64,000 nt of DNA from Saccharopolyspora rosea (GTDB taxonomy: Bacteria; Actinomycetota; Actinomycetes; Mycobacteriales; Pseudonocardiaceae), in NCBI RefSeq assembly GCF_025643595.1, contig NZ_CP102826.1, positions 1,612,001 through 1,676,000 of the forward strand, read 5' to 3'. Position 1 is the stretch's first letter. Each line of letters begins with the position of its first letter. The translations under genes were made by a program, and so were the position numbers. This document shows positions 14,355 to 32,517 of the stretch, piece after piece. The notes below the pieces were generated by a model. That model was not told where the DNA came from. It worked only from the letters and a program-made list of their open reading frames with translations, and searched no databases.

Positions 14355-14377
14355 CTTTTCCCCATCGGCTGGTCGAT

Positions 14378-14711
14378 GCCTGTCTTTGAACTCGTTTTGG
14401 GGGCGGTGCCGGTGGCGGAACCTCAGAGCCTGTCTTCGAACTCCTTTTGCGTAGCGGTGCCGGTGGCGGAACCTCAGCGGCCCGCCCGTCACCCGACCAC
14501 CACCCCCACGGAGGCGCTTCGCGCCACAGCCACATCGACTGCGGAAGCCCCTCCTGATGTATGCCCAATACACGGCGTCGGGGCTGTCCTCGCGAGACGA
14601 CCGCTGAGAACCCGCGGCGGTGCAAGTTGCTTGCGTACTCACCGAAAGAGAAAGCGGCTGGCGCCGCTTGCCACGCGGGTTCCGGGAGCAGGTTCAAAGA
14701 CAGGCACTCAG
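14378..14711. repeat. Intergenic repeat, copy A (full length, double left end)
   Basis: Fills most of the 514-bp gene-free stretch after gcdH. The left end GCCTGTCTTTGAACTCG is at 14378 and a second left unit GCCTGTCTTCGAACTCC at 14428; each is followed by a GCGGTGCCGGTGGCGGAACCTCAG-like segment. The body follows, then the inverted right end GTTCAAAGACAGGC near 14692-14705. The body (about 14467-14658) is almost identical to copy B. It contains a hairpin GGCGC-TTC-GCGCC (14513-14525). No credible protein is encoded. Confidence 0.85.
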
Positions 14712-14860
14712 CGGCCCGCCCGTCGCCCGACCACCGCCCCCCGACGACGCGCTGACGCGCCGCCGTGCTCGTCGGAGAACCCGCGGCGGTGCCAGCGCGG
14801 CGGGACCACTCACCGGAAGAGGAAGCGCCACGAGGGCGGTGTCTGCCCGATGGGGCGCGG
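14712..14860. repeat. Degenerate partial body of the same repeat (copy A2)
   Basis: Directly after copy A's right end the sequence restarts as CGGCCCGCCCGTCGCCCGACC, then gives GAGAACCCGCGGCGGTGCC (14776 region) and ACTCACCGGAAGAGGAAGCG, a diverged second version of the body without the central GATGTATG segment. It ends at about 14860, just before the SDR stop. The small hairpin is kept in altered form (GCGC-TGAC-GCGC near 14749-14760). Confidence 0.65.
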
Positions 14861-14868
14861 AACCCGTG

Positions 14869-15627
14869 TCACCACACGGTGAAGCCGCCGTCGATGACGA
14901 CGTTGCTGCCGGTGACGAAGCTGCTGGCGTCGGAGGCGAGGTAGACCGCGAGCGGGCCGATCTCGCGGGGTTCGGCGACGCGGCCCAGCGGGGTCTGGGC
15001 CACCCAGCCGTCGTACCAGTCCGGTTTGGTGGTGCGGACACCGGTGAGCAGCTCGGTGCCGGTGTAGCCGGGGGAGATGGAGTTGACCCGCACGCCGCGG
15101 CCGCCCCACTCGCCGGCGAGGGACTTGGTGAGCATGATGACCCCGGCCTTGGAAGCGTTGTAGGACGCCTGCGGCTGAGGGTGGTTCGAGATGATCCCGG
15201 ACATCGACGCGAGGTTGACGATCGAGCCGGAACCCTGCGCCAGCATCACCTTCCCGACCTCGCGGCAGCACCAGAACACCGCATCCAGGTTCAGGCCCAC
15301 CACGGTCCGCCACGACTCGTCCGACATGGACTCCGCGGGTTCGTTGCGGACGGTTCCGGCGTTGTGCACGGACACGTCGATGCGCCCGTGATCGGCCGCG
15401 ACGGAGCCGATCACCTCGGCCACCGCGGCGGAGTCGGTGACGTCGAGCTTCCGGAACTCGCCGTCGACCTCGGCGGCGGCGCGTTCGCCCGTCTCCGGGT
15501 TGATCTCGGCGATCACCACGCGCGCACCGGCCGATCGCAGCGCCTTGGCGATCTCCAGACCGATGCCCTGGCCACCCCCGGTGACCAGCGCGACCCTGTC
15601 CTGCAACGAGAAGATCTCGGTTCCCAT
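14869..15627 (-). CDS. Short-chain dehydrogenase/reductase (SDR)
   Basis: NAD(P)-dependent oxidoreductase of 252 aa, classical SDR. The cofactor motif is TGGGQGIG at residues 16-23, NNAG is replaced by HNAG, and the catalytic residues are Ser143, Tyr156 and Lys160 (ASYNASKAG). The ending is the standard SSFVTGSNVVIDGG. Asp/Glu after the second strand (IAEIN) suggests NAD(H). The start ATG 15627 has no clear ribosome site and could be leaderless; a GTG at 15675 would add 16 residues. The gene is isolated between two direct copies of the intergenic repeat. Substrate unknown; sugar alcohol or polyol dehydrogenases of this form are common. Confidence 0.88.
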   Translation of the reverse strand: MGTEIFSLQDRVALVTGGGQGIGLEIAKALRSAGARVVIAEINPETGERAAAEVDGEFRKLDVTDSAAVAEVIGSVAADHGRIDVSVHNAGTVRNEPAESMSDESWRTVVGLNLDAVFWCCREVGKVMLAQGSGSIVNLASMSGIISNHPQPQASYNASKAGVIMLTKSLAGEWGGRGVRVNSISPGYTGTELLTGVRTTKPDWYDGWVAQTPLGRVAEPREIGPLAVYLASDASSFVTGSNVVIDGGFTVW

Positions 15628-15731
15628 GCCCAGAACGTACGCGGCCACGCCGCCGCGTTCCAGAGCGAACTCCACTGCGCCTGCCTTCGAACCCGGTTCC
15701 TTCCCGAACGGTCACGGGCGGGCCGCTGAGT

Positions 15732-16063
15732 GCCTGTCTTTGAACTCGTTGTGCGGGGCGGTGCCGGGAGCGGAACCTCAGCGGCCCGCCCGTCACCCGA
15801 CCACCACCCCCACGGAGGCGCTTCGCGCCACAGCCACATCGACTGCGGAAGCCCCTCCTGATGTATGCCCAATACACGGCGTCGGGGCTGTCTCGCGAGA
15901 CGACCGCTGAGAACCCGCGGCGGTGCCGGTTGCTTGCGTACTCACCGAAAGAGAAAGCGGCTCACGCCACTTACCACGCCCGTCGGAACCAAGTTCAAAG
16001 ACAGGCACTGAGGTTCCGCCACCGGCACCGCTACCCAAAAAGAGTTCGAAGACAGGCGCTCAG
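15732..16063. repeat. Intergenic repeat, copy B (full length, double right end)
   Basis: Occupies most of the 432-bp gap between the SDR start and the amidase stop. The left end is GCCTGTCTTTGAACTCG at 15732. The body (15771-15961) is nearly identical to copy A in the same orientation, with the hairpin GGCGC-TTC-GCGCC at 15817-15829. The inner right end GTTCAAAGACAGGC is at 15993-16006 and the outer right end GAGTTCGAAGACAGGC at 16042-16057. The outer edge runs into the amidase stop codon (TGA 16060-16062 on the minus strand). A further degenerate left end (GCCTGCCTTCGAACCCG) begins near 15680, beside the SDR start. Confidence 0.85.
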
Positions 16064-17523
16064 CGCAGTGCCGGGGGCAGCACGCGGTGCACCCAGTCGC
16101 TGGCGCGCTCGTAGGCGTGCGCCAGCTGCAGGACCGCCCACTCGGCGTGGTTGCGGCCGATGAGCTGCACGCCCATCGGCAGCCCGGCGTCGTTGAAACC
16201 GACCGGCAGGTTCGCGACCGGGTGGCCGGACAGCGTCCACGGCGCCACCGTCTCCATCCACCGGTGGTAGGTGTCCATCCGGCGGCCGTCGATCTCCTGC
16301 GGCCAGCGCAGTTCCGCGTCGAACGGGAACACCTGGGCGCTGGGCGCCAGCAGGAAGTCGTAGCGGTCGAACAGCCGGGCCACCGCGGCGTACCAGGCGT
16401 TGCGGCCGTCGAGGGCGCGCGTGATGTCCCGGATTCCCAGCCCCAGGTAGCCCTCGACCTCGTAGACGGCCTCCGGTTTGAGCAGTGCGCGGGTGCCCGG
16501 ATCGGCGTGCAGGTCGGCGAGCTTCTGCCCGACCATCCAGTGCCGCCACAGCAGGAAGATCTCCCACATCCGCTCGACCGGCAGTTCCTCGGTGACCGGC
16601 ACGATCTCGCAGCCGATGGCGGCGAACGTCGCGAAGGACCGCTCGCACAGCTCCAGCACGCCGGGTTCGGTCGGCAGGTGGCCGCCGAAGTCGCCGATCC
16701 ACCCGATGCGCGTCCGGGAGAAGTCGCGCTCCAGCTTCCCGGTGAACATCTCCGGATCCTGCTCGATGCTCAGCGGCGCGCGCTCGTCCGGACCGGCCAT
16801 TGTGGACAGCAGCATCGCGATGTCGCGCACCGTCCGGCCCATCGGGCCGTTGACCCCCGGGGCGCTGACGAATCCCTCCTCGGGGACGCGCCCGAAACCG
16901 GGCCGGAGCGACACGATGTTGCCGAACGCGGCCGGATTGCGCAGCGAGCCCATGAAGTCGCTGCCGTCGGCCACCGGCAGCAGCCGCATCGCCACGGCCG
17001 CCGCGGCGCCCCCGCTGCTGCCGCCCGCCGTCAGCGAGTGGTCGTAGGCGTTGCAGGTGGTGCCGAAGACCGGGTTGAAGGTGTGCGAGCCGAGCCCGAA
17101 CTCGGGCACGTTGGTCTTGCCGATGACGATCGCACCGGCCTCGCGCATCCGGCGCACGTGCAGGTCGTCGGTGGTGGCGACGTCGTCGGCGAAGATCGGC
17201 GACCCCATCGTGGCCGGGAACCCGTCGGCGTTGGCGAGGTCCTTGATCGCGACCGGGAATCCGTGCATCCAGCCGAAGCACTCGCCCCGGTCGAGCTCCT
17301 GGTCGCGCTGCCGCGCCTGGTCGAGCAGCTTCTCCTCGTCGGCGCGCGAGACGATCGCGTTGACGGCCGGGTTGAAGCGGTCGATGTGCGCCAGGTAGGT
17401 CCGCATCACCTCCACGCAGGAGACCTCGCGCCTGCGGATCGACCAGGACAGCTCGACCGCGTCGAGCAGCACCAGATCGGGGATCTTCGCCGCAGGAAGG
17501 CCGGAACCCGGTGGCACGCCCAA
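16060..17523 (-). CDS. Amidase (amidase signature family)
   Basis: Hydrolyses an amide bond with a Ser-cisSer-Lys triad. With the TTG start at 17523 (AGGAGG six bases upstream) the protein is 487 aa. Lys94 lies in VAIKD, the cis-Ser is Ser170 in AGGSSGG, and the nucleophile is Ser193 in GSDFMGSLRNPA. A GTG at 17517 is an alternative start. The length is normal for bacterial amidases of the AtzF/indoleacetamide-hydrolase group; it is not GatA, since no gatB/C neighbours are present. It is divergent from an MFS transporter with a FadR-type site in the gap, so the transporter may import the amide. Its stop codon forms the edge of repeat copy B. Confidence 0.88.
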   Translation of the reverse strand: MGVPPGSGLPAAKIPDLVLLDAVELSWSIRRREVSCVEVMRTYLAHIDRFNPAVNAIVSRADEEKLLDQARQRDQELDRGECFGWMHGFPVAIKDLANADGFPATMGSPIFADDVATTDDLHVRRMREAGAIVIGKTNVPEFGLGSHTFNPVFGTTCNAYDHSLTAGGSSGGAAAAVAMRLLPVADGSDFMGSLRNPAAFGNIVSLRPGFGRVPEEGFVSAPGVNGPMGRTVRDIAMLLSTMAGPDERAPLSIEQDPEMFTGKLERDFSRTRIGWIGDFGGHLPTEPGVLELCERSFATFAAIGCEIVPVTEELPVERMWEIFLLWRHWMVGQKLADLHADPGTRALLKPEAVYEVEGYLGLGIRDITRALDGRNAWYAAVARLFDRYDFLLAPSAQVFPFDAELRWPQEIDGRRMDTYHRWMETVAPWTLSGHPVANLPVGFNDAGLPMGVQLIGRNHAEWAVLQLAHAYERASDWVHRVLPPALR

Positions 17524-17681
17524 CGTCGTCCTCCTGTTGTCGATCAGCCCGCTTGAGGAACCTTCGCGGGTGCGGCGTGTCCGCGTCAACCCGGCAAAAC
17601 GGTATCGGTACTCCAGCAGGAGGAGCTGGACGGAGGCGTGGGTCACGTCGCCGTTGCCAACCGGTGCGCGGGTTCGCAGTC

Positions 17682-17692
17682 TGGTAAGACCA
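17682..17692. promoter_or_regulatory. FadR/GntR-consensus operator TGGTAAGACCA
   Basis: TGGTNNNACCA is a perfect match to the FadR/LldR-type GntR half-sites. It lies 25 bp before the MFS start in the gap between the divergent amidase and MFS genes. No GntR gene is adjacent, so the regulator may be encoded elsewhere. Binding is inferred from the motif alone. Confidence 0.5.
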
Positions 17693-17717
17693 TTGCGCCG
17701 CACCGCGAGGAGAGGCG

Positions 17718-18920
17718 ATGTCCGGGGTCGCCGTGGTCGGTGGCCGTCCGACCGCTGTCGGAGTGCCCAGAGTGCTGTCCTCGGTGGCGGCCGTGGTCAC
17801 CGTGGGCGTGTTCCCCGTCTTCCTCGTCGGCGGACTCGGCGTGCAGCTGCGGCAGGACCTGCACTTCGGGGCCGCGTTGCTGGGTTTCGCCGCGGCGGGT
17901 TTCTTCGCCGTCGCGGCGGTGTTCTCCCGCGCCATGGGCTGGCTGGTCGAGCGGATCGGGTCCCGTTCGGGCATGCGGCTGGCCGCGCTGGGCAGTGCGC
18001 TGTGCCTGGGTGGCATGGCCCTGGCGGGCAGCGCCGGATGGCTGCTGGTGCTGCTGTGGATCGCCGGATTGCCGAACTCGCTGGGACAACCGGCCGCCAA
18101 CCTGCTGATCGCGCAGGGCGTTCCCGCGCACCGCCGGGGCATGGGCTTCGGCGTCAAGCAGTCGTCGATCCCGGCCGCGACCTTGCTGGCCGGCGTGGCG
18201 GTGCCCGCCGTGGCGTTGACCGTCGGCTGGCGCTGGGTCTTCGCCATCGCCGCGGTGGTCGCGCTCGTCGCGGCGGCGACCGTGCCCTGGCTGCCGCAGG
18301 CGGAACGGTCCGCGGCCCCGGCCGGGACCGGGGAGGCCGGTTCGGGCCGCGGGGCGCTCGTGCTGCTGGCGCTCGCCGGCGGTCTCGGTTCGGCGGCGGC
18401 GAACGCGCTCGGCGCGTTCGTGACCAGCACGGCGGTGGACGTCGGGTTCCGGCCGTCCACGGCGGGCCTGGTGCTGTCGCTGGGGTCCGCGGCCGGGCTG
18501 ACGATCCGGCTGCTGGTCGGGGTGGCCGCCGACCGCCGGAACCCGAACCTGGTGCGCACCATCACGGTGATGCTGCTGGTCGGATCGGTCGGCTACGCCC
18601 TGATGGCGGTGCCGCGGCCCGGGGGCTTCCTGGTCGGGGTGGCCGTCGCCTTCGGCGCCGGGTGGGCCTGGCCCGGACTGCTGAACTTCGCCGTCGCCAA
18701 GCTCAACCCCGGGCGGGTCGCCAGCGCGACCTCGTTCACCCAGACCGGCATCTACTTCGGGGGCAGCGCGGGACCGCTGCTGTTCGGCGTCCTGGCCGAA
18801 CAGGTCGGCCTCGGCGGCGCGTGGCTGGTGGCGGGCGTCGCCGCCGTGGTCGCGGGCGTGCTGATGCTCTTCGTGCGTCAACCCGACTTCCGCGCCACAC
18901 CGCCGTACAGGAGCGGGTAG
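17718..18920 (+). CDS. MFS transporter
   Basis: Major facilitator of 400 aa with about 12 hydrophobic segments. The A-motif-like loop between TM2 and TM3 reads MGWLVERIGSRSGMR, and the cytosolic loops are positively charged. ATG 17718 follows GAGGAGAGG. It is divergent from the amidase, with which it probably forms a functional pair (uptake of an amide or export of a product). The last 43 bp overlap the convergent methyltransferase gene, which is unusually long for a tail overlap but both frames read cleanly. Confidence 0.87.
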   Translation: MSGVAVVGGRPTAVGVPRVLSSVAAVVTVGVFPVFLVGGLGVQLRQDLHFGAALLGFAAAGFFAVAAVFSRAMGWLVERIGSRSGMRLAALGSALCLGGMALAGSAGWLLVLLWIAGLPNSLGQPAANLLIAQGVPAHRRGMGFGVKQSSIPAATLLAGVAVPAVALTVGWRWVFAIAAVVALVAAATVPWLPQAERSAAPAGTGEAGSGRGALVLLALAGGLGSAAANALGAFVTSTAVDVGFRPSTAGLVLSLGSAAGLTIRLLVGVAADRRNPNLVRTITVMLLVGSVGYALMAVPRPGGFLVGVAVAFGAGWAWPGLLNFAVAKLNPGRVASATSFTQTGIYFGGSAGPLLFGVLAEQVGLGGAWLVAGVAAVVAGVLMLFVRQPDFRATPPYRSG

Positions 18921-19684
18921 CGGGTGCTGGTGACGATCTGGTCGGGATCCGGGCGCCAGGCGGACAGGTACGTCGCGCCGGGTGGCAGCAGCTCGAAGTC
19001 GCCGAACAGGCCGTCGATCCAGGAGGTCGGGCGGGCGCGCAGCGGATCGGCCGTCTCGGCGTAGAAGTCCTCCAGCACGCCCATCGCCCGCGTGTCGCGG
19101 TCACCGGTGACGTGCGAGACCACCAGGTGGCTGCCCGGCGGGAGGGCGGCGCGGTAGGTCCGCACCAGACCGCTCGGATCGTCGGCGTCCGGGACGAAGT
19201 GCAGCACCGCCGACAGCAGCAGTCCCACCGGTTGCCCGAAGTCGAGCAGTTCGGCCGCCTCCGGTGCGCGCAGCACCGACTCGGGGTCCCGGCAGTCGGC
19301 CCGGATGATCTCGGCGCGCGGCTCGTCGGCCAGCAGCGGTGCGCTGTGCGCGACGGTCAGCGGCTCGTTGTCCACGTAGAGCACGCGGAAGTGGCGGGTG
19401 CGGCGGCGGGCCACCTCGTGCACGTGGCCGATCGTCGGGATGCCCGAGCCGAGGTCCAGGAACTGCCGCACGCCGCGCGCCAGCAGGTACTCGACCGCGC
19501 GGCGGATGAACGCCCGGTTCTCCCGGTAGGTCTCGGTGATCCCGGGAAGCGTCTCCTCGACACGCTCGACGAACCCGCGCTCGACCCCGAAGTTGTGGCT
19601 CCCGCCGAGGAAGGCGTCGTAGATGCGGGCGGCGCACGGGCGGTCGATGTCCATCTCGCGCGGCGGGTCCTGCGTGTCGAACAT
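18878..19684 (-). CDS. SAM-dependent methyltransferase, SAV2177/DUF574 family
   Basis: Protein of 268 aa of a family typical of actinobacteria. It opens with DRPCAARIYDAFLGGSHNF, the family hallmark, then shows a degenerate SAM loop QFLDLGSGIPTIGHVHEVA and the acid VLYVDNEPLTVAHS. RBS GGGGGAGGAG precedes ATG 19684. Members have the Rossmann methyltransferase fold, but substrates are mostly unknown; many sit beside DUF397/XRE pairs, which is not the case here. Divergent from the mscR gene. Confidence 0.86.
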   Translation of the reverse strand: MFDTQDPPREMDIDRPCAARIYDAFLGGSHNFGVERGFVERVEETLPGITETYRENRAFIRRAVEYLLARGVRQFLDLGSGIPTIGHVHEVARRRTRHFRVLYVDNEPLTVAHSAPLLADEPRAEIIRADCRDPESVLRAPEAAELLDFGQPVGLLLSAVLHFVPDADDPSGLVRTYRAALPPGSHLVVSHVTGDRDTRAMGVLEDFYAETADPLRARPTSWIDGLFGDFELLPPGATYLSAWRPDPDQIVTSTRYPLLYGGVARKSG

Positions 19685-19827
19685 GGGCTCCTCCCCCTTT
19701 CCGCCGAAATCTTACAGTAACCGTCTGACGACACTCGGTGTTCGCGGGGAAGATCCAGTTCAGGTATTGCCATGGCGATGGGCGCATATCACGATGGCGG
19801 CTCTCGTCCCGGTCAGAGGAGGTGCAC

Positions 19828-20910
19828 GTGTCCGAGGTCCGTGCGGTGGTGTCGACCGGCAAGGGCCGGCCGGTCGAGGTCGTGACGATCAACGTCCCGG
19901 ATCCGGGACCCGGCGAGGCGGTGGTGCGGGTGCAGGCGTGCGGTGTCTGCCACACCGACCTGCACTACCGCGAGGGGGGCATCAGCGACGACTACCCGTT
20001 CCTGCTCGGGCACGAGGCCGCCGGGGTCGTCGAGGCCGTCGGTGACGGGGTGCGCAACGTCGAACCCGGCGACTTCGTCGTGCTCAACTGGCGCGCGGTG
20101 TGCGGCTTGTGCCGGGCGTGCAGGCGCGGTCGCCCGCAGTACTGCTTCGACACCCACAACGCGGCCCAGCCGATGACGCTGACCGACGGCACCCCGCTGT
20201 CGCCGGCGCTGGGCATCGGCGCGTTCGCGGAGCGGACGCTGGTCCACTCCGGCCAGTGCACGAAGGTGGACCCGCAGGCGCGGCCGGCGGTCGCCGGTCT
20301 GCTGGGCTGCGGTGTCATGGCCGGGATCGGCGCGGCGGTCAACACGGGTGGCGCCGGACCCGGCGACACGGTCGCGGTCATCGGCTGCGGCGGCGTCGGC
20401 GACGGCGCGGTGGCGGGCGCGGCGATGGCCGGGGCGCGCCGGATCATCGCCGTGGACACCGATCCGACGAAGCTGGAGTGGGCGCGGCAGTTCGGCGCCA
20501 CGCACGTGGTCAACGCCGCCGAGTCCGACTCGGTCGAGGCGATCCGCGACCTCACCGGCGGGTTCGGCGCCGACGTGGTGGTGGAGGCGGTCGGGCGGCC
20601 GGAGACGTTCGAGCAGGCTTTCTACGCGCGCGACCTGGCGGGCACCGTGGTGCTCGTCGGCGTGCCGACGCCGGAGATGGAGCTCCGGCTGCCGATGCTG
20701 GACGTGTTCGCCCGCGGCGGTGCGATCAAGTCCAGCTGGTACGGCGACTGCCTGCCGGAACGCGACTTCCCGATGCTGGTCGAGCTGTACCTGCAGGGCC
20801 GCCTGCCGCTGGAGAAGTTCGTGACCGAGGAGATCGCTCTGGACCAGGTGGAGCAGGCGTTCGACAAGATGCACCGCGGAGAGGTGCTGCGTTCGGTGGT
20901 GACCTTCTGA
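19828..20910 (+). CDS. mscR: S-(hydroxymethyl)mycothiol dehydrogenase (mycothiol-dependent formaldehyde dehydrogenase)
   Basis: Oxidises the adduct of formaldehyde and mycothiol to S-formylmycothiol with NAD, and also acts on S-nitrosomycothiol. The 360-aa zinc MDR has the catalytic zinc set ([19 protein letters not shown]) and a structural zinc loop with Cys in [47 protein letters not shown] and [16 protein letters not shown] are very close to known mscR products. The GTG at 19828 follows AGAGGAGG. The stop shares a base with the next start (TGATG), so the MBL hydrolase is co-translated. Confirms a mycothiol-using organism. Confidence 0.94.
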
Positions 20911-21539
20911 TGGCGCTGCGCATCGACCACACGACGACGTCGGGCACGTTCTCGCTGGACGGGCAGACCTTCGACGTCGACAACAACGCCTGGGTCGTCG
21001 GCGACGACCGGGAGTGCGTGGTCATCGACGCACCGCACGACGTGGCCGCCATCCTCGCCCTGGTCGGCGACCGCGAGGTGCTGGCGGTGCTGTGCACGCA
21101 CGCCCACGACGACCACGTGCGCAAGGCTCCCGAACTCGCCGACGCGGTCGGGGCGCCGGTGTTCCTGCACCCGGACGACATGGTGCTGTGGAACCTCACG
21201 CACCCGGACCGCCCACCGGACCGGGAGCTGGCCGACCGGCAGGTCGTGGGCGTCGGCGGTTCCGGTTTGCAGGTGCTGCACACGCCCGGGCACGCACCCG
21301 GTGCGGTCTGCCTGCACTCGGTGGACCTCGGCGTGGTGTTCACCGGGGACACGCTGTTCGCGGGCGGCCCCGGGGCGACGGGGCGGTCCTATTCGGACTT
21401 CGACGTCATCGTGCGGTCCATCCGGGACCGGCTGCTGACCCTGCCGGATTCCACGGTGGTCCACCCGGGGCACGGCGAGAGCACGACCATCGGTGCGGTC
21501 AGACCGCAGTTCGACGAATGGGTCCGACGCGGCTACTGA
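20910..21539 (+). CDS. MBL-fold metallohydrolase, putative S-formylmycothiol hydrolase partner of MscR
   Basis: Metallo-beta-lactamase fold hydrolase of 209 aa. The binuclear metal motif is THAHDDH, with later ligands in TPGHAPGAV, GDTLFAGG and HPGHGE, which is the glyoxalase II-like set. The start ATG uses the A of the mscR TGA, so the two proteins are produced together. The same pair is conserved in mycobacteria and streptomycetes. The likely job is cleavage of S-formylmycothiol to formate and mycothiol; this reaction is inferred from genomic pairing. Confidence 0.88.
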   Translation: MALRIDHTTTSGTFSLDGQTFDVDNNAWVVGDDRECVVIDAPHDVAAILALVGDREVLAVLCTHAHDDHVRKAPELADAVGAPVFLHPDDMVLWNLTHPDRPPDRELADRQVVGVGGSGLQVLHTPGHAPGAVCLHSVDLGVVFTGDTLFAGGPGATGRSYSDFDVIVRSIRDRLLTLPDSTVVHPGHGESTTIGAVRPQFDEWVRRGY

Positions 21540-21581
21540 CACGAACCCCTACCACTTTCGTGGGATGGATGTTGCACTCGT

Positions 21582-22973
21582 GTGGTGCATGATCCCGAAT
21601 ACCGTCCGTCGTCACCGGACAGGGGCGGCGGTGGAGGTACGAGTGCCGCGGGCCCGGTGCTCCCCACCAACCCGCCGGGCCCGCGGCACGCGGCCGGAGC
21701 AGGTCGGCGCGGGCGCGGCCTGCTGGACTGGGCGCGGCGGCACCGCACGACGCTCGGCGATCTCGGCATCGTGCTCCCGCTGTCCGTGCTCCAGGTGGTG
21801 GACCTGACCGCCTCCCCGCACCCGCCGCAGATCGCGTGGTGGTGGCCGGCGGTCGCCAGCGTTCCCGCGACCTGCGCGCTGTGGCTGCGGCGGCGCGCGC
21901 CGTGGGCGGTGCTGCTCGTGATGGTCGCCGTCGCGGTGGCGCTCAACTCGTTCAAGCTCTCGATCGGCTCGTTGAACCTGGGGATCCTCGTCGCGGTCTA
22001 CGCCGTGTGCTCGCGGGGTTCGCCGGCGCAGAGCGTGGCCGCCGGGCTGGTCGCGATGGCGTACCCGGTCAGCGACCTGCCGTTCATGGACTCCCCGATG
22101 GAACGAGCGCTGCGCATCGTCGGGGCCGTGGTGAACCTGATCATGGTGATCGGTTGGGCCCGCGCGATGCGCGTCGGCCGGCTGCGCGCCGCGCAGCTGG
22201 AACGCAGCATGGCGCTGCTCGACGAGGCTCGCGACCAGCGGGCCGCCGACGCCGCGGTGATCGAGCGCGCCCGGATCGCGCGGGAGTTCCACGACATCGT
22301 GTCGCACAACCTGTCCGTGGTGGCGCTGCGCGCGGGCGTGGCCCGGGCGCTCATCGACCGCGACCAGGAGCACGCCAGGCAGACGCTCCAGGAGCTGGAG
22401 CGCAGTTCGCGGGCGGCGCTGTCGGAGATGCGCCACCTGCTCGAAGCGCTGCGCGGGGACGGGTCCGACGGCGGCGGCGAGCTGGTGGACCGGCAGCCCA
22501 CCCCGATGTTGGCGGAACTGGACGAGCTGGTCGACTCGGTGCGCGGTGGTGCCGTGAGCTGGACGCTGGACCGCCGCGGCCAGGTCCGGGAACTCGGGCC
22601 CGGCGTCGAGATGACCGCCTACCGCATCGTGCAGGAGGCGGTGACCAACGTCCTCAAGCACGCCGGGACCGGGCGGGCCCGGGTGCTGCTGGACTACGGC
22701 GCGCAGGCGCTGCGCATCGAGGTCAGCAACGAGACGAGCGAGCCGCGCAGCCGCGAGGGCTCCCACAGTCCTGGACACGGATTGATCGGACTGCGGGAAC
22801 GCGTTGCGCTGCTGGGCGGAACTCTGACCGCGCATCCGATTTCCGGCGGGTTCCGCCTGGAGGCCGTGCTACCGTGCGCGGGAAATTCGGACCCGGGAAG
22901 AGCCGGAATTCCGGGGCACACCGAGGAGGTCGGCGAGAGTGGATGCGGAGACGACCGTTCTCATCGCCGATGA
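21582..22973 (+). CDS. Sensor histidine kinase, NarL/DesK type
   Basis: Membrane sensor that autophosphorylates and passes phosphate to the next gene's product. The protein is up to 463 aa: a Pro/Gly-rich N-terminus, four to five hydrophobic segments (about residues 65-185), a coiled linker, then the HisKA_3 dimerisation domain with His237 in EFHDIVSHNLSVV. The ATPase domain shows VQEAVTNVLKHAG (N box) and HGLIGLRERVALLGG (G box). The GTG 21582 start has no strong ribosome site, so the true start is uncertain. The 3' end overlaps the response regulator by 35 bp. Confidence 0.88.
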   Translation: MVHDPEYRPSSPDRGGGGGTSAAGPVLPTNPPGPRHAAGAGRRGRGLLDWARRHRTTLGDLGIVLPLSVLQVVDLTASPHPPQIAWWWPAVASVPATCALWLRRRAPWAVLLVMVAVAVALNSFKLSIGSLNLGILVAVYAVCSRGSPAQSVAAGLVAMAYPVSDLPFMDSPMERALRIVGAVVNLIMVIGWARAMRVGRLRAAQLERSMALLDEARDQRAADAAVIERARIAREFHDIVSHNLSVVALRAGVARALIDRDQEHARQTLQELERSSRAALSEMRHLLEALRGDGSDGGGELVDRQPTPMLAELDELVDSVRGGAVSWTLDRRGQVRELGPGVEMTAYRIVQEAVTNVLKHAGTGRARVLLDYGAQALRIEVSNETSEPRSREGSHSPGHGLIGLRERVALLGGTLTAHPISGGFRLEAVLPCAGNSDPGRAGIPGHTEEVGESGCGDDRSHRR

Positions 22974-23619
22974 CCAGGCGATGATCCGGGCGGGCCTGGT
23001 GGCGCTGGTGTCCGCCGAGCCGGGCCTGCGGGTGCTGGCCGAGGCCGCCGACGGCGACTCGGCGGTGGCCGCGGTGCGCCGCAGGCGCCCCGACGTGGTG
23101 CTCATGGACGTGCGGATGCCCGGCAAGGACGGCATCACCGCGGCCGCCGAGATCATCGAGGCCACCGGCGGGGACACCGCCGTGATCATGCTGACCGTGC
23201 ACGACCTGGACGAGCACGTCTACGCCGCGTTGCGCGCCGGGGCCAGCGGGTTCCTGCTCAAGGACGCCGGGCCGGAGGAGCTGGTCCGGGCGGTGCGCAC
23301 GGTCGCGGCCGGGGAGGCGCTGCTCGCCCCCCGCGTCACCAAGCGGTTGCTGCGCCGGTTCGCGTCGCTGGGCGTGCGGGACGCGCGCAGCGAGCTCAGC
23401 CGGCTCACCGATCGGGAGTTGGACGTGCTGCTGGAGGTGGCCCGGGGCGGGTCCAACGCGGAGATCGCGCGCAACCTCGGCCTCGCCGAACTGACCGTGA
23501 AGTCGCACGTCTACCACATGATGCAGAAGCTGCACCTGAACTCGCGCACCCAGCTGGTCATCACCGCCTACGAAACCGGCCTGGTCTGCCCGGGGCAGGA
23601 CCCCCGCGCCTCGGCGTAG
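22939..23619 (+). CDS. Response regulator, NarL/LuxR type
   Basis: DNA-binding partner of the upstream kinase, 226 aa. The receiver domain has the acidic pair DD at 11-12, the phospho-acceptor Asp57 in VVLMDVRMPG, Thr in MLTVHD and Lys in LLKDAG. The C-terminal LuxR helix-turn-helix runs LTDRELDVLLEVARGGSNAE then LTVKSHVYHMMQKL. GTG 22939 follows GAGGAGG inside the kinase gene, so expression is coupled. Targets unknown. Confidence 0.92.
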   Translation: MDAETTVLIADDQAMIRAGLVALVSAEPGLRVLAEAADGDSAVAAVRRRRPDVVLMDVRMPGKDGITAAAEIIEATGGDTAVIMLTVHDLDEHVYAALRAGASGFLLKDAGPEELVRAVRTVAAGEALLAPRVTKRLLRRFASLGVRDARSELSRLTDRELDVLLEVARGGSNAEIARNLGLAELTVKSHVYHMMQKLHLNSRTQLVITAYETGLVCPGQDPRASA

Positions 23620-23664
23620 CCGCTGCCGGGCCCACCGCGCCGGGAGCCGGGTTGGTGTAATGGG

Positions 23665-24726: not shown

Positions 24727-24803
24727 TCGGCGGTCGCACGACTGGCACGGTGGCCCGCCGACTCCCACGCTGAGACCTGAGGTCGACGGCGGAGGAGAGC
24801 GGG

Positions 24804-27218
24804 ATGGCGGAGACCACCGGAACCCAGGCGTCCTGGGCGACGACGCCCGCGGCGACCGAGCACCTGAGCGCCCAGGAGCTCGACGGGCTGGACATGTGGT
24901 GGCGCGCGGCGAACTACCTGTCCGTCGGGCAGATCTACCTGATGGGCAACCCGCTGCTGCGGGAACCGCTGCGCCCGGAGCACGTCAAGCCGCGCCTGCT
25001 CGGCCACTGGGGCACCACGCCCGGGCTGAACTTCGTCTACGCGCACCTCAACCGCGCCATCCGGACCCGGGACCTGGACATGATGTACGTGATCGGACCG
25101 GGCCACGGCGGTCCGGGGCTGATCGCCGCCGCGTGGCTGGAGGGCACCTACAGCGAGGTCTACCCGGACGTCGCGCAGGACCACGACGGACTGGTCCGGC
25201 TGGTCACCCAGTTCTCCTTCCCCGGTGGGGTGCCCAGCCACGTGGCGCCGGAGACGCCGGGGTCGATCCACGAGGGCGGCGAGCTGGGGTACTCGCTCGC
25301 GCACGCCTTCGGCGCCGCGCTCGACAACCCGGAGCTGGTGGTGGCCTGCGTCGTCGGCGACGGTGAGGCGGAGACGGGACCGCTGGCGGCCGGCTGGCAG
25401 TCGAACAAGTTCCTCGACCCGGCCACCGACGGGGCGGTGCTGCCGATCCTGCACCTCAACGGGTACAAGATCGCCAGCCCGACGGTGTGGGCGCGGATCC
25501 CGGAGGAGGAACTGCTGAGCACGCTGCGCGGTTTCGGCTACGAACCGTTCGTGGTGGCCGGTTCGGACCCCGGGTCGATGCACCACCTGTTCGCCGCGAC
25601 GCTGGACCGCTGCCTGGACGGCATCGCCGCGGTCCAGCGGCGGGCCCGCCGGGACGGCATCCAGCGCCGGCCGCGCTGGCCGATGATCGTGCTGCGCACC
25701 CCGAAGGGCTGGACCGGACCAGCCACAGTGGACGGAAAGCGGGTGGAGGGGACGTGGCGGTCGCACCAGATCCCGCTCTCCGACCCGCGCCGGAACCCGG
25801 AACACCTCGCCCAGCTGGAGTCCTGGCTGCTCAGCTACGAACCGGCCGAGCTGTTCGACCACGACGGCGCCCCGGTCCCGCCGATCCGGGAGCACAGCCC
25901 CGTCGGGATCCGGCGGATGAGCGCCAACCCGCACGCCAACGGAGGGCGGCTGCTGCGCGCGCTGCGGATGCCGGACTTCCGCGACTACGCGGTCCCGGTG
26001 GCGCGACCGGGTGCCGAGACCGCGGAGGCGACGCGGGTGCTCGGCGGTTTCCTGCGCGACGTGGTGCGCCGCAACAGGCAGAACTTCCGGGTTTTCGCGC
26101 CGGACGAGAACAACTCCAACCGGCTGGACGCCGTGCTGGAGGCGACCACCCGGGCCTGGGTTGCCGAGACCGAACCCGGTGACGAGTCGTTGGCCCCGGA
26201 CGGGCGGGTGATGGAGATCCTGTCCGAGCACACCTGCCAGGGCTGGTTGGAGGGGTACCTGCTCACCGGCAGGCACGGGTTCTTCTCCTGCTACGAGGCG
26301 TTCGCGCACATCGTGGACTCGATGGTCAACCAGCACGCCAAGTGGCTGAAGGTCAGCAACCAGCTGCCGTGGCGGGCGCCGATCGCGTCGCTGAACTACC
26401 TTCTGACCTCGCACGTGTGGCGCCAGGACCACAACGGTTTCTCGCACCAGGACCCGGGATTCATCGACCACGTGGTGAACAAGAAGGCCGAGATCGTGCG
26501 GGTCTACCTGCCGCCGGACGCCAACACGCTGCTGTCGGTGGCCGACCACTGCCTGCGCAGCCGCGACTACATCAACGTCGTGGTGGCGGGCAAGCAGCCC
26601 GAGCCGCAGTACCTCGACATGGACGCGGCGATCGTGCACTGCACCAAGGGCATCGGGATCTGGGACTGGGCCAGCAGCGACCAGAGCGGCGACCCCGACG
26701 TGGTGATGGCCTGCGCCGGGGACGTGCCGACCATGGAGACGCTCGCCGCCGTGGACCACCTCCGCCACGACTTCCCGGACCTGCGCATGCGGGTGGTCAA
26801 CGTGGTGGACCTGATGCGCCTGCAGGAGGAGCGGGAGCACCCGCACGGGTTGTCCGACACCGCGTTCGACAGCCTGTTCACCCGCGACCGGCCGGTCATC
26901 TTCGCCTTCCACGGCTATCCCTGGCTGATCCACCGGCTGACGTACCGGCGGCACAACCACGCCAACATCCACGTGCGCGGGTACAAGGAGGAGGGCACCA
27001 CGACCACGCCGTTCGACATGTGCGTGCTCAACGAGATCGACCGGTTCCACCTGGCCATCGACGTCATCGACCGGGTGCCGCGGCTCGGGCCGCGTGCCGC
27101 GTACGCGCGGGAGGCGTTGAAGAGCAAGCTCATCGAGCACCGCCAGTACGTGTCCGCGCACGGCGAGGACATGCCGGAGATCCAGGAGTGGACGTGGCCG
27201 GGCCGGCTCGGGTCCTGA
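24804..27218 (+). CDS. xfp: Xylulose-5-phosphate/fructose-6-phosphate phosphoketolase
   Basis: Thiamine-diphosphate enzyme that splits xylulose-5-P (or fructose-6-P) with phosphate to acetyl-phosphate plus glyceraldehyde-3-P (or erythrose-4-P). The protein is full length (804 aa). Visible motifs are [19 protein letters not shown], the ThDP/metal motif [19 protein letters not shown], and [15 protein letters not shown] in the pyrimidine domain. GGAGGAGAG precedes ATG 24804. The acetate kinase gene overlaps its 3' end by 25 bp, so acetyl-phosphate can be used at once to make ATP. Confidence 0.96.
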
Positions 27219-28288
27219 CGGTCAACGCCGGGTCCAGCAGCCTGAAGCTCCGCCTGCTCGACGGCGAGGTCCTCACCGTCGAACAGGAGCTGGAGCGCTG
27301 GGACGGCGACGCCGAGCCGATCCGGGCGTTCCTCGTCGAGCACGGCGCCGACGCCATCGGGCACCGGGTGGTGCACGGCGGCACCCGCATGTCGGCGGCC
27401 GCGGTGGTCGACGACGACGTGGCGCAGTACCTGGACTCGCTGACCGAACTCGCCCCGCTGCACCAGCCGAGAGCGCTGGCGGGCATCCGCGCGGCGCGGC
27501 GCGCGGCTCCGGGCACACCGTCGGTGGCGTGCGTGGACACGGCCTTCCACGCGACGCTCCCGGCCGCCGCGGCGACCTACGCGCTGCCGCGCGAGTGGAA
27601 CCGCAAGTGGTCGCTGCGCCGGTACGGCTTCCACGGCCTCTCGCACGCGTACGCGTCGGTGCGCGGCGCCCATGCGACCGGGCTGGTGCCCGGCCGAGGG
27701 CGGGTGCTGAGCTGCCACCTCGGCGCCGGGGCGTCGCTGGCCGCGGTGCGCGACGGCCGGTCCGTGGACACCACGATGGGGTTCACGCCGGAGGAGGGGC
27801 TGGTGATGGCCAGCCGCAGCGGGTCGGTGGACCCGGGCCTGCTCGGCTTCCTGTTGACGGTGAAGGGGATGCCCGTCGCGGACCTGTTCGACGCGTTGGC
27901 CACGCGCGGCGGGCTCGCCGGGTTGTCGGGCTCCGGCGACCTGCGCGACGTGTTCGCGGCGCGCGACGGCGGGGACCGCGACGCCGCGCTGGCCCTCGAC
28001 GTGTACCTGCACAGCCTCGTCCGGCACGCCGGGGCGATGCTCGCCGTGCTCGGCGGTCTCGACCTCGTCGTGTTCACCGGCGGCGTCGGCGAGCACCAGC
28101 CGCCGGTGCGGTCGGCGGTGTGCGCGGCCCTGGAGTGCGCCGGTGTCGCGGTGGACCCGGCGCGCAACGCGGCGGCTGACGGCGACACCGACATCGGCGC
28201 CCCGGGCGCCCGCGTCCGGGTGGCGGTCGTCCAGGCCCGCGAGGACCTGGAGATCGCCCGGCAGACGCGGGCCGCCTTGAGCGGGTGA
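27194..28288 (+). CDS. ackA: Acetate kinase
   Basis: Converts acetyl-phosphate and ADP to acetate and ATP. The 364-aa protein shows the ASKHA signatures [15 protein letters not shown] at the start, [29 protein letters not shown] and [15 protein letters not shown] prefer GTG 27194, which has AGGAG five bases upstream; GTG 27188 sits on the Shine-Dalgarno itself. It overlaps the end of xfp and is surely co-expressed. No pta gene is present, so acetyl-phosphate comes from phosphoketolase. Confidence 0.94.
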
Positions 28289-28298
28289 CCCGGGCGGC

Positions 28299-28324
28299 AC
28301 AACGAGTTCAAAGACGGGCTCTCA
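28299..28324. repeat. Intergenic repeat, single terminal unit (copy E)
   Basis: Contains GAGTTCAAAGACGGGC (28304-28319) followed by TCTCA, the right-end unit of the repeat family with no body. It fills the 33-bp gap between convergent ackA and the FhuF-like gene, and the TCA at 28322-28324 is the FhuF stop codon read on the minus strand. Confidence 0.7.
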
Positions 28325-29023
28325 AGCGCGGCGTGCGGCCGAGTTCCAGAGCACGCACTCGGAGCAGTAGCCGGTGCCGTTCGCGCGCCACCACTGGCAG
28401 CAGGTGTTGCGGCGCGCCCACGGCACCCGGTGTGCGTCGATGTCCAGGAGGTGCTCGCGTCCGGTCGCCGCGCGCAGGGCGCGGGCGGTGGCCACCGCGT
28501 CGCCGGGCAGGCCCGCGCAGTCCAGCCGCCACAGCACCGCGCCGAGCAGGCCGACTGGGTTGCCCCAGTACTCGTGGCTGTCCGGGGCCGGGCCGCCGAG
28601 GGCGTGCAGTCCCTCGGTCAGCGGCGCGAACGCCGCCTCGACCTGCCGCCACCACTGCTGCGGCGACGGCGACCCCAGCGGTTCGGCCGTCGGCCGCAGG
28701 CCCGCCAACCGGCCCTCGTCGGTGACCGCGACGCGCAGGTCGTCGAGGGCGGGGACCGGTGCGCCGAGGTGGCACTCCGGCACGGTCGCGCAGCAGGCCA
28801 GCCAGCCGAACCGGAACGCGACCAGCACGATCCCGGCCCGCCGGTGCCGGAAACCGCCGCGTTCCTGCCACTCCTCGACGCAGCGCGCCAGCCACGGTCC
28901 GGACGGGTCGCAGAACTCCCGCCACGGCACGGTCGGCAGCGTCGAGGACGGCACGCTGCCGGGCCTGGGCAGCAGCCGGTCGCATTCCCGGACTCGGGCG
29001 TGCAGGACGGCGGACGAAGTCAC
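28322..29023 (-). CDS. FhuF-like [2Fe-2S] protein, probable ferric-siderophore reductase
   Basis: Cytoplasmic iron-sulfur protein that likely releases iron from imported siderophores by reducing it. Start GTG 29023 follows AGGAGA; length 233 aa. The diagnostic C-terminal cluster site is TCCQWWRANGTGYCSEC (CC-x10-C-x2-C), as in FhuF. The rest is a weakly conserved helical domain. It is not next to siderophore genes. Its stop codon is the first part of a repeat unit (copy E). Confidence 0.85.
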   Translation of the reverse strand: MTSSAVLHARVRECDRLLPRPGSVPSSTLPTVPWREFCDPSGPWLARCVEEWQERGGFRHRRAGIVLVAFRFGWLACCATVPECHLGAPVPALDDLRVAVTDEGRLAGLRPTAEPLGSPSPQQWWRQVEAAFAPLTEGLHALGGPAPDSHEYWGNPVGLLGAVLWRLDCAGLPGDAVATARALRAATGREHLLDIDAHRVPWARRNTCCQWWRANGTGYCSECVLWNSAARRA

Positions 29024-29051
29024 GATGTCTCCTGTGGACTGTCGACGTGGA

Positions 29052-29294
29052 GCCTGTCTTCGGTGCTCGTCGTGCGCGGCGGTGCCGGTGGCTGGAGCGG
29101 ACACCCGAGAACCGTCCGCGGAGGCGCCGCGCGCGACTCCACCGAGCCCCGACATCATGGACCACTCGCGTACCACGCCGGGGCCGTCCTCGCGAGACGC
29201 CGACCTGCCCCCGGACGCCGCGGCGACAGCCGGAGGCCCCGCGGCGGTGCCGACCGCGCGAGCGAGCGTTCCGGGACCGGGTTCGAAGACGGGC
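29052..29294. repeat. Intergenic repeat, diverged full-length copy D
   Basis: Takes up most of the 329-bp gap between the divergent FhuF-like and KimA genes. The left end is GCCTGTCTTCGGTGCTCG at 29052, then GGCGGTGCCGGTGG as in the other copies. CCTCGCGAGACG and CCCGCGGCGGTGCC are kept in the body, and the right end is GTTCGAAGACGGGC at 29281-29294. Identity to copies A/B is much lower than A to B. This is the only copy lying in a promoter-containing region between divergent genes. Confidence 0.72.
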
Positions 29295-29352
29295 GCTCAC
29301 CGGGGGAGCCTGGCGGCGCGCGCGGGCCGGGCGTTGCGAACGCGCCTAGCCT

Positions 29353-31356
29353 GTGGCCGTGGCCTCATCGGTGCAGCTGATCAAGCGACTGGTGTTGGGG
29401 CGGCCGGTGCGGACCGACCGCCTCCAGGAGACGCTGCTGCCGAAGCGGCTGGCGCTGCCGATCTTCGCCAGCGACCCGCTGTCCTCGGTGGCCTACGCGA
29501 CGCAGGAGATCCTGCTCGTGCTGTCCGCGGGCGGGCTGGCCTACCTGTACCTGGCGTCGTGGGTCGGCGTCGCCGTGGTGGTGCTGCTGGCGCTGGTGGT
29601 CGCCTCCTACCGGCAGGTGGTGCACGCCTATCCCGGCGGGGGCGGGTCCTACGAGGTGGTGGCGCGCAACCTGGGCCGCAACGCGAGCCTGGTGGTGGCC
29701 GCCGCCCTGATGGTCGACTACGTGATGACCGTCGCCGTGTCCGTGGCGGCGGGCGTCGACAACCTCGTGTCGGCCGTGCCCGAGCTCTACCAGCACCGGG
29801 TCGTGGTGAACGTCCTGCTCGTGGTCCTGCTGAGCGCGGTCAACCTGCGCGGGGTGCGCGAGTCGGGGCGCGCGTTCGCGGTGCCGACCTACCTGTTCGT
29901 CGTCGGGCTCGGCGTGACGATCGTGGTCGGCCTGGCGCAAACCGCCGTCGGCCACCCGCCGGTGGCCGACAGCGCCGGATACGGCATCCGGCCGACCGAG
30001 TTCGACCTCACCGGTCTGGCCCTGGTGTTCCTGCTGCTGCGGGCGTTCTCCTCCGGGTGCACCGCGCTGACCGGGGTGGAGGCGATCTCCAACGGCGTCC
30101 CCGCGTTCCGCCGCCCCAAGGACGTCAACGCCGGGCGCACCATGCTGATCATGGGAGTGCTGGCGATCGGCCTGTTCAGCGGGGTGACCGCGCTGGCGTT
30201 GATCAGCCACGTGCGCATCGCCGAGGACCCGTGCGACCTCATCGGATTCCGCGGCGACTGCCACGCCGAGGGGCAGCGCACGGTGATCGCGCAGCTCGCC
30301 GCAGCGGTGTTCGGCAGTGGCAGCCCGATGTTCTACGTCGTGCAGGCGGGCGCCATCCTGATCCTGGTGCTCGCGGCGAACACCGCGTTCAACGGGTTCC
30401 CGCTGCTCAGCTCGCTCCTCGCGCAACGCCGGTACCTGCCGCGCCAGCTGCACACCCGGGGCGACCGGCTGGTGCACTCCAACGGCATCATCCTGCTCGG
30501 GCTGATCGCGATCCTGCTGCTCGCGGTGTTCGAGGGTTCGGTGACCCGGCTGATCCAGCTGTACATCCTGGGCGTGTTCACCTCGTTCACGCTCAGCCAG
30601 ATCGGCATGGTCCGGCACTGGAACGCCGAGCTGCGGGAGACCGACGACCAGGCCCGACGGCGGCGGATCCACCGGGCCCGGGCCATCAACGCGCTCGGCG
30701 CCTGCATGACCGCTGTGGTGCTGGCGGTCGTCCTGGTCACCAAGTTCGACCACGGCGCCTGGCTGGTGGTGATCGCGGTACCGGCGCTGTTCGCGCTGAT
30801 GCGCGGCATCCACCGGCACTACGTCGAGGTCCGCCGCGAGCTGGAACCCGAGGCGGACGGCCCGACGCTGCCGAGCCGGGTGCACGCCGTGGTGCTGGTG
30901 TCCACGCTGCACAAACCGACGCTGCGGGCGCTGGCGTTCGCCCGCGCCAACCGGCCGGACAGCCTCACCGCGCTGACCGTCAACGTCGACGACGCCGACA
31001 CCCGGGTGCTGGAGGGGGAGTGGGAGCGCCGCGACATCCAGGTGCCGCTGAAGGTGGTGGAGTCCCCGTACCGGGAGATCACCCGCCCGGTCGTCGACTA
31101 CGTCAAGCGGATCCGCCGCAGCGGCCCGCGCGACCTGGTGTGCGTCTACATCCCGGAGTACGTGGTCGGGCACTGGTGGGAGAACCTGCTGCACAACCAG
31201 AGCTCGCTGCGCCTGAGCTGGCGGCTGCGGTTCGAACCCGGCGTCATGGTCGTCTCCGTGCCCTGGCAGCTGCACTCCAGCCACCTCCGCGAGATCGACC
31301 GGCCCCGGCCGGGGCCCGGGCGGCTGCGCCGCGGCTTCGTCCCGCCGTCCAGCTGA
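29353..31356 (+). CDS. kimA: KimA-type (KUP-like) potassium transporter, APC superfamily
   Basis: Proton-coupled potassium importer of the plasma membrane. The 667-aa protein resembles Bacillus KimA (YdaO) throughout: PIFASDPLSSVAYATQEIL near the N-terminus, VASYRQVVHAYPGGGGSYE, LMVDYVMTVAVSVAAGVDN, SSGCTALTGVEAISNGVPAF and ILVLAANTAFNGFPLL. About 12 hydrophobic segments occupy the first 480 residues; the C-terminal part is a cytosolic domain of the universal-stress type shape (VLVSTLHKPTLRALAFARAN). The start is GTG 29353 or GTG 29359; TAGCCT just upstream could serve a leaderless transcript. No c-di-AMP riboswitch is recognised upstream. Confidence 0.85.
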   Translation: MAVASSVQLIKRLVLGRPVRTDRLQETLLPKRLALPIFASDPLSSVAYATQEILLVLSAGGLAYLYLASWVGVAVVVLLALVVASYRQVVHAYPGGGGSYEVVARNLGRNASLVVAAALMVDYVMTVAVSVAAGVDNLVSAVPELYQHRVVVNVLLVVLLSAVNLRGVRESGRAFAVPTYLFVVGLGVTIVVGLAQTAVGHPPVADSAGYGIRPTEFDLTGLALVFLLLRAFSSGCTALTGVEAISNGVPAFRRPKDVNAGRTMLIMGVLAIGLFSGVTALALISHVRIAEDPCDLIGFRGDCHAEGQRTVIAQLAAAVFGSGSPMFYVVQAGAILILVLAANTAFNGFPLLSSLLAQRRYLPRQLHTRGDRLVHSNGIILLGLIAILLLAVFEGSVTRLIQLYILGVFTSFTLSQIGMVRHWNAELRETDDQARRRRIHRARAINALGACMTAVVLAVVLVTKFDHGAWLVVIAVPALFALMRGIHRHYVEVRRELEPEADGPTLPSRVHAVVLVSTLHKPTLRALAFARANRPDSLTALTVNVDDADTRVLEGEWERRDIQVPLKVVESPYREITRPVVDYVKRIRRSGPRDLVCVYIPEYVVGHWWENLLHNQSSLRLSWRLRFEPGVMVVSVPWQLHSSHLREIDRPRPGPGRLRRGFVPPSS

Positions 31357-31358
31357 CG

Positions 31359-32333
31359 TCAGCCGACGAGCGCGGCGAGGCGGCGGTAGGAGTCCAGGCG
31401 TTCGGACTGGTCGTGGCCGGTCGTCGTGACCAGCAGCTCGTCGGCCCCGGTGCGGGTGACGAGGTCGCCGAGCTCGTTCGCCACCTCGTCCTCGGTGCCC
31501 GCCAGGTGGCCTTCCAACGCGCGTTCGAAGTGCAGCCGCTCGCGGTCGGTCATGGCCCGGGACAGCACGTCCTCCGGCGGTTCCAGCGGCGGGAACTCGC
31601 CGCGGGTGCGCGAGTACGCCTGCGCCCACGCCTCCGGCACGAGCAGGCGGCGCGCCTGCTCGGTGCTGTCGGCGACCGCGACCGATCGCGCGACCACCAC
31701 GTGCGGTTCCGGATTCGCCGGGGACGGGCGGAAGCGCTCGCGGTAGCGCTCGATCGCGGCGACCAGCCGGGACTCGCCGCGCACCGGGGCGATCACCAGC
31801 GGCAGCCCGAAGTCGGCGGCGGTGTCCGCGCCGGACCCGGTGGCCAGCACGAACACCGGCACGGACAGGCCCGCGGCCGGGACCGCGCGCACCGGCCCGT
31901 CCCCGGTGAAGTACCCGAGCAGTTCGGCGAGCTGGTCGCCGAACCGCGCCGCGGTCTCCCGGTCGGCGCCGAGGGCGCGGCGCACGTCGCCGGTGAAGCC
32001 GACGGACCGGCCCAGTCCCAGGTCGATGCGGTCGCCGAACAGCGAGGCGAGCACGCCGACCTGCTCGGCGACCACGAGCGGCCGGTGGTTGGGCAGCATC
32101 ACACCGCCGGTGCCGACGCGGATCCGCGACGTCGCCGCGGCCACCGCGGCGGCCAGCACGGTCGGCGCCGCCCCGGCGACGCCGGGGACACCGTGGTGCT
32201 CGGCCACCCAGAACCTGTGGTACCCGGCCTCCTCGATGCGCTGCGCGAACCGCACGGTCTCCCGCACCGCTTCCTGCGCCGGCCGCCCACGCAGGACGTG
32301 CGACCGGTCCAGCACCGACAGAGGCAACGTCAC
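31359..32333 (-). CDS. Luciferase-like monooxygenase (LLM family, F420- or FMN-dependent)
   Basis: Flavin-dependent oxidoreductase, 324 aa from GTG 32333. It matches the MsnO8-type LLM group: TLPLSVLDRSHVLRG, YHRFWVAEHHGVPGVAGAAP, RIRVGTGGVMLPNHRPLVVA, LLVTTTGHDQSERLDSYRRL. The conserved AEHH motif is intact. No ribosome site precedes the GTG; an in-frame ATG at 32387 falls inside repeat copy C (the same ATG occurs in copies A and B), so I regard it as part of the repeat rather than the gene start. The stop is only 2 bp from the convergent KimA stop. Confidence 0.85.
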   Translation of the reverse strand: MTLPLSVLDRSHVLRGRPAQEAVRETVRFAQRIEEAGYHRFWVAEHHGVPGVAGAAPTVLAAAVAAATSRIRVGTGGVMLPNHRPLVVAEQVGVLASLFGDRIDLGLGRSVGFTGDVRRALGADRETAARFGDQLAELLGYFTGDGPVRAVPAAGLSVPVFVLATGSGADTAADFGLPLVIAPVRGESRLVAAIERYRERFRPSPANPEPHVVVARSVAVADSTEQARRLLVPEAWAQAYSRTRGEFPPLEPPEDVLSRAMTDRERLHFERALEGHLAGTEDEVANELGDLVTRTGADELLVTTTGHDQSERLDSYRRLAALVG

Positions 32334-32384
32334 GTCCGGTGCAACGCGCGGAGCGCGGCGAGATTCCGCGGCACGGGGCTCGAA

Positions 32385-32517
32385 CATCAAGAGGGGCTTG
32401 CGCAGTCGACGTGACCGCGGCGCGTCAGCGCCTCGTCGGGGGTCGGGTGACGGGCGGGGCGCTGCCGTTTCTGCCACCGGCACCGCCTCGCACAACGAGT
32501 TCGAAGACGGGCTCTCA
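32385..32517. repeat. Intergenic repeat, partial inverted copy C
   Basis: Opposite in orientation to copies A and B: the terminal unit GAGTTCGAAGACGGGC is at 32497-32512, then CACCGGCACCGCC and the body back to CATCAAGAGGGGCTTGCG at 32385, where similarity stops. The body hairpin is kept with a changed loop (GGCGC-GTCA-GCGCC, 32419-32432). The edge TCA at 32515-32517 is the stop codon of the PAP2 gene. It lies between the PAP2 stop and the LLM start, both on the minus strand. Confidence 0.78.

Follow-up and report, generated by a model that had tools for sequence, protein, structure and literature searches.

MITEs of Haloquadratum are moved in trans, and some elements there have other elements as their main insertion targets: SMR-A, among others, attacks PATEs and IS605-type transposons (PMC3119063). 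ISLrh, an 857 bp member of the IS1031 subgroup, makes a 3 bp TNA duplication, has the inverted repeat GAACCTGTCTAGTATCT and carries two overlapping frames (PMC12016507). REP sequences are intergenic and serve as insertion hot spots targeted by specific IS (Tobes and Pareja 2006, PMC1525189), and in the eukaryotic PHIS elements the NuwaII group has a target duplication of either TNA or CTNAG with a conserved flanking C (PMC4482050).

The repeat family described here, T1, was found in a 64,000-nucleotide stretch of the Saccharopolyspora rosea genome (the window). Like other bacterial and archaeal MITEs, among them those of Haloquadratum, its members are short and non-coding and combine the ends of a resident transposon with an unrelated body; unlike the Haloquadratum elements as portrayed in that account, the T1 body holds the site of the resident IS and its core occurs in two sets of ends. 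The partner IS matches ISLrh in its TNA duplication, in its similar length and in an inverted repeat, GTGCCTGTCTTTGATCTTG, that resembles GAACCTGTCTAGTATCT, and departs from the published description of ISLrh in having an extended occupied site, ACC-TCA-GCG, in 10/10 copies and one frame only in each of the nine that are intact. With REPs T1 shares the character of an intergenic repeat family used as a target by a specific IS, although, unlike REPs as described in that paper, T1 and the inserting IS have ends in common and T1 also inserts into itself. The TNA/CTNAG target with its flanking C resembles that of NuwaII, whose hosts are eukaryotic. REP and REPIN sequences are associated with the REP tyrosine transposase (RAYT), and PHIS/NuwaII elements have been linked to Tourist-type MITEs; the target duplications and the IS5-type partner argue for a mechanism other than that of REP/REPIN in the present case.

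T1 is a genuine MITE family of a kind already known, recently active and with a likely partner identified. Unusually, its core not only moves but is also a target, comes in two sets of ends and is linked to three resident IS types. In the explanation that we favour, with a probability of roughly 0.87, the T1 repeats are non-autonomous MITEs moved in trans by an IS5-family IS, the repeats form a dispersed landing platform, and a second subfamily, T2, is the same core with other ends. This would offer a concrete example of passive repeats that appear to direct the landing of active transposons, and target choice together with preservation of stop codons may explain the presence of hundreds of insertions in a genome that, where sampled, is 71% G+C and about 85% coding. 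Full-text literature searches, narrow in reach, returned no description of the family, which may have been described before, and nothing resembling the repeats turned up in plasmid and phage collections.

Anatomy and dispersal of the T1 repeats

A preliminary description of this DNA, made from its letters alone, had pointed to a terminal unit at five intergenic places, inverted at the two ends of full copies. The unit, GCCTGTCTTTGAACTCG, is indeed present at all five, with ten matches in the window (at most three mismatches) against 0.08 expected and a maximum of two in 100 shuffles, and the 17-mers are inverted at both termini of full copies. They are not confined to the window: the T1 17-mer occurs at 277 places in the genome (one 6.56-Mb contig; at most two mismatches), and the same pattern reversed at two. 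By similarity search there are 65 repeat clusters in 1.2 Mb (sample A) and 78 in 0.8 Mb (sample B), that is 143 in 2.0 Mb, which would extrapolate to about 470 clusters in the whole genome. Among 60 relatives, T1 ends number 45 in G014, 15 in G033, 11 in G034 and 6 in G012, the others having 0-4 and backward controls likewise 0-4.

A full T1 element measures about 280 bp. Its ends read G[A/T]GCCTGTCTTTGAAC.. and a 3 bp TNA is duplicated within C-TNA-G. The left end, GAGCCTGTCTTTGAACTCG, is followed by a roughly 50-bp arm terminating in GGCGGAACC-TCA-GCGG, after which come a variable body of quasi-palindromes, the hairpin AAGCGGC/GCCGCTT and the right end, ...CAGGTTCAAAGACAGGCAC. The TNA duplication, which the preliminary description had suggested looking for, follows from three sets of observations: the outside flank is C-TNA-G at most of the 65 T1 ends of sample A; paired events with both ends outside other copies have identical duplications in four of seven cases (sample A; n=7 only); and nested copies are flanked by it. 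Self-nesting is modest, with 16/65 T1 ends lying in repeats in sample A and 24/93 in sample B; 13 of the 65 in sample A, outside repeats and without a CTNAG-like flank, were left out, as were 11 of the 93 in sample B, where 58 were kept.

In the window the single end, the partial copies and the full copies that had been distinguished are all present, but the first two of the supposed copies are each a full element nested in an older one. At the first place, on the plus strand, sequence read directly gives the left arm of an outer copy (14378-14425) broken at its internal target TCA (14423-14425) by a full element (14426-14707), beyond which the TCA is repeated (14708-14710) and the outer copy continues (14711-14827, right limit approximate); the flanks of the inner element join as GAACC-TCA-GCGGCCC, the uninterrupted form in other copies. 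At the second, a plus-strand full element (15730-16008), duplicating TGA (15727-15729 and 16009-16011), lies within a minus-strand copy made up of a degenerate part (15679-15726, approximate) and an arm (16012-16059), whose flanking TCA (16060-16062) provides the TGA stop codon for gene 16060-17646 on the minus strand. These inner elements, 279-282 bp long, both occupy the internal CTCAG of the older copy. Two further minus-strand copies also abut stop codons of genes on that strand: a single T1 end (28303-28321) meets TCA 28322-28324, which ends gene 28322-29023, and a partial copy with an arm (32385-32514) meets TCA 32515-32517, which ends gene 32515-33114. Between two divergent genes lies a diverged full copy (29050-29296, plus strand). 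The same two genes are paired in four relatives (L280, L282, L283 and L284) with a gap of 117-130 bp, as against 330 bp here, and no T1 end (at most four mismatches) was found at the 29 other loci examined. Insertion is therefore established by the nested window copies and by the absence of the 29-kb copy from four relatives. The window also contains, at 24804-28288, an 804-aa frame, which we assume may be a phosphoketolase, followed by a 366-aa frame that, from the motif at its start, we take to resemble acetate kinase.

The family is short and without transposase coding, has terminal inverted repeats and TNA target duplications, is dispersed in high copy number with nesting and an empty site in four relatives, and has as partner a full-length IS5-family element with similar ends. 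The non-autonomous, MITE-like character first suggested for it is thus borne out, as is the statement that the window has no transposase, in that all matches to the IS5 protein, PF01609 and PF13546 fall outside it; what had been missed were the nesting, the second type of terminus and the proposed role as a landing site.

Placement relative to genes

Gene calls came from our own codon-usage script rather than from a standard gene finder. In sample A, 49 of the 51 clusters of at least 80 bp overlap coding sequence by less than 10%, random placement giving a mean of 4.2 and a maximum of 10. When clusters of any length are counted, 59/65 (sample A) and 72/78 (sample B) fall below 10% and only one and three, respectively, are at least half coding. 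In the two samples together, 49 clusters lie in the 33.6 kb of convergent gaps, 39 in the 136 kb of tandem gaps and 11 in the 92 kb of divergent gaps, a density about 12-fold higher in convergent than in divergent gaps.

This placement may also be read as that of elements that serve the host in regulation or at transcript ends (terminators, RNA processing) and are maintained by selection, with mobility old and incidental, a reading that we consider improbable. The strong bias towards convergent genes agrees with it, and so does the finding, close to the right end of each full inner copy, of a hairpin resembling a terminator (three found, 0.9 expected): in one it reads AAGTGGC-gtga-GCCGCTT and is followed by a T-rich stretch (15955-15972, minus strand), and its counterpart in the other is at 14652-14669. 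The pairing of this stem is kept with other letters, as AAGCGGC/GCCGCTT in the genome under study (G000) and in G014, ATGCGCC/GGCGCAT in G007 and, by eye, ATGCCC/GGGCAT in G034. The element at 15730-16008 folds better than its shuffles (z -4.0 as DNA, -4.7 as RNA), with 17 terminal pairs in the predicted fold; the inverted repeats of any MITE, however, fold without a host role. Further points tell against selection for such a role: a scan of window positions 14000-33000 gave no Rfam match at the gathering threshold, the T-rich tail is missing in the G014 and G007 copies, left and right ends both face genes at stop codons (11 and five, respectively, by our own reading), and the 29-kb copy is missing in four relatives. 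A transcript-end role for the hairpin itself, which in G000 scores as terminator-like on one strand, is possible.

Active targeting of stop codons by T1 was considered separately and rejected. The 16/29 events at stop codons in sample A (p = 0.0025) were not replicated in sample B (12/45), and the pooled 28/74 (38%) compares with 33% expected (p = 0.22), close to the proportion predicted if CTNAG is chosen and insertions in genes are lost. When strand was strictly respected, 16 and 14 T1 ends were counted at stops of genes running into the element, with no wrong-strand coincidences.

The resident IS and its proposed landing site

By way of a transposase from the relative G034 we arrived at ten IS copies in the genome under study, all outside the window, with ends similar to those of T1; a transposase with matching ends was what the preliminary description had proposed to look for. 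They measure 956-959 bp between exact ends, GCCTGTCTTTGATCTTG; the frame is uninterrupted in nine and one copy is split into two matches. The transposase matches the NCBIfam model NF033580, IS5 family transposase (E 6.9e-59, 199.5 bits, cut-off 110), and among the best 80 of its 116 matches in named genomes the relatives, from Streptomyces and many others, reach at most 58% identity. TCA or TGA is duplicated on both sides of 10/10 copies, and the related IS of G034 has an identical TNA (TCA, TGA or TAA) in eight of nine two-ended copies, the ninth (L050) having TGA and TCA. One copy in G034 (L056:2009-2814) is cut short at about 2814 and followed by sequence resembling another transposon. From its ends and target duplication, not from a tree, we propose that the IS belongs to the IS1031 subgroup of the IS5 family. 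Its end differs from the MITE 17-mer by two mismatches; beyond the ends the two have little in common, with no wider likeness by eye, and this very IS is therefore only a likely mover. On this sequence evidence, T1 was most likely mobilized in trans by an IS5-family, IS1031-like IS of the same genome.

Nine of the ten IS copies occupy one identical internal point of the repeat, GGCGGAACC-TCA-GCGG, in either orientation, and the tenth (L068), outside any repeat and with a target duplication, is likewise at ACC-TCA-GCG. This 9-mer, occupied in 10/10 cases, may be what the IS transposase recognizes. In the 2.0 Mb sampled, 64 of the 79 ACCTCAGCG sites lie within repeat arms. When 92 arm sites were scored, 68 were empty, 18 were filled by a MITE or IS whose ends are of the T1 type, and six held something else; a split of the 18 between MITE and IS, as 6 and 12, is unclean because the right end of a MITE can differ from an IS end by one base. 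Pairwise identity is 0.995-1.000 among the IS copies and 0.81-1.00 among the arms of their host repeats, from which it follows that the insertions were recent and, for the most part, independent events in distinct older repeats.

The IS might be found in repeats merely because insertion is harmless there, with no preference for a target. Nearly all copies of the repeat stay clear of genes, neutral places would be favoured by selection alone, and the related IS of G034 has a looser link to repeats, directly adjoining a repeat end in only 3/10 copies (L048, L051 and L056, by our own reading), a weaker tie that slightly lowers our confidence in the overall explanation. Neutral alternatives are plentiful, however: sample A has 366 CTNAG sites, non-coding or at a stop codon, that do not lie in repeats. 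Against a null of 52/481, a simple one that mixes counts from two separate tallies, nesting in 9/10 copies has p = 2e-8. Since L071 and L072 have one composite in common, the independent count is nearer 8/9, for which p = 1.5e-7. In addition, the sole IS copy outside repeats is at the same 9-mer, and near-identical copies have left little time for selection to act. We regard harmlessness without preference as a poor explanation, on a par with the regulatory one. Spread of the IS among repeats by homologous recombination or gene conversion instead of transposition would account for the 2.6 kb common to L071 and L072 at 99.4%, but is very improbable given that the host repeats of the remaining copies differ, that of L076 bearing a T2 end on its arm, and that L068 has a target duplication outside any repeat.

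Under the favoured explanation, then, an IS5-family, IS1031-like transposase would insert T1 at TNA inside C-TNA-G and duplicate the TNA; the core carries ACC-TCA-GCG, so that repeats and IS alike nest in older copies at the same internal position. The CTNAG flanking T1 ends would be used by two IS701-like elements, and the repeats would take up insertions between genes as a dispersed landing platform. Such a function, and any benefit to host or element, we infer.

The two IS701-like elements, with three and six copies, are at a CTNAG touching a T1 end in 3/3 and 6/6 cases (9/9); the T1 end beside one of them (L264) is degenerate, and two (L266 and L268) have one composite in common and so are not independent. 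At a tenth PF13546 match (L272) no T1 end was present in the 3.5-kb locus, nor were ends of its own found. A composite of an IS701-like element, a repeat arm and the IS, bounded by transposon ends, is present at two places in the genome (L071/L072; L266/L268) with 99.4-99.9% identity, and its parts may have moved together.

A second set of ends on the same core

T2 ends read GGGAGTGTTTCGG.. and GCGCGTGTTTT.., and the probe GGAGTGTTTCGGAAGTGC finds 37 places in the genome (at most two mismatches), of which the 30 given as loci were used for the tallies. The repeat core of T1 is present at most of these 30. The left end is flanked by exact CTAG at 20/30, the right end is recognizable at 19, and the duplication may be either TA or CTAG. 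We suggest that this subfamily, the same core in different ends, would presumably be served by another transposase, one that targets CTAG. No partner transposase was found in a search of 61 genomes, and in the 110 bp read at each of the 30 loci no transposase end was recognized, which is compatible with more diverged partner ends. Outside G000 the search gave five single matches: by eye, those in G035 and G007 (L305 and L306) are related repeat copies and three are apparently unrelated.

A called stop codon lies exactly at a T2 junction at 21/30 loci genome-wide and in 11/14 events of samples A and B, two sets that overlap, the baseline being 48/264 (18%) non-coding or stop-codon CTAG sites (p = 7e-10 and 1.5e-6, respectively). 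A recount strand by strand bore out the genome-wide figure, with 20 TAG and two TAA codons at 22 junctions. A more far-reaching version of the favoured explanation can be built on this, in which one core, enclosed by the termini of two transposition systems unrelated to each other, would include the preferred target of one of them and at its edges would produce the target of a third system, and would thereby be a genome-wide insertion absorber; T2 would actively insert at stop codons in CTAG, the duplication and the first G of the element preserving a stop at no cost to the gene. We put this forward tentatively and think it rather unlikely as a whole.

At L072, beside a T2 end and past CTAG (about 2650-2900), the sequence, judged by eye, resembles a further transposase gene, presumably IS630-like. 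The scan for T2 ends also returned three identical stretches (G000:C1, about 1022966, 1417846 and 1918511), which by their look we take to be rRNA operon leaders.
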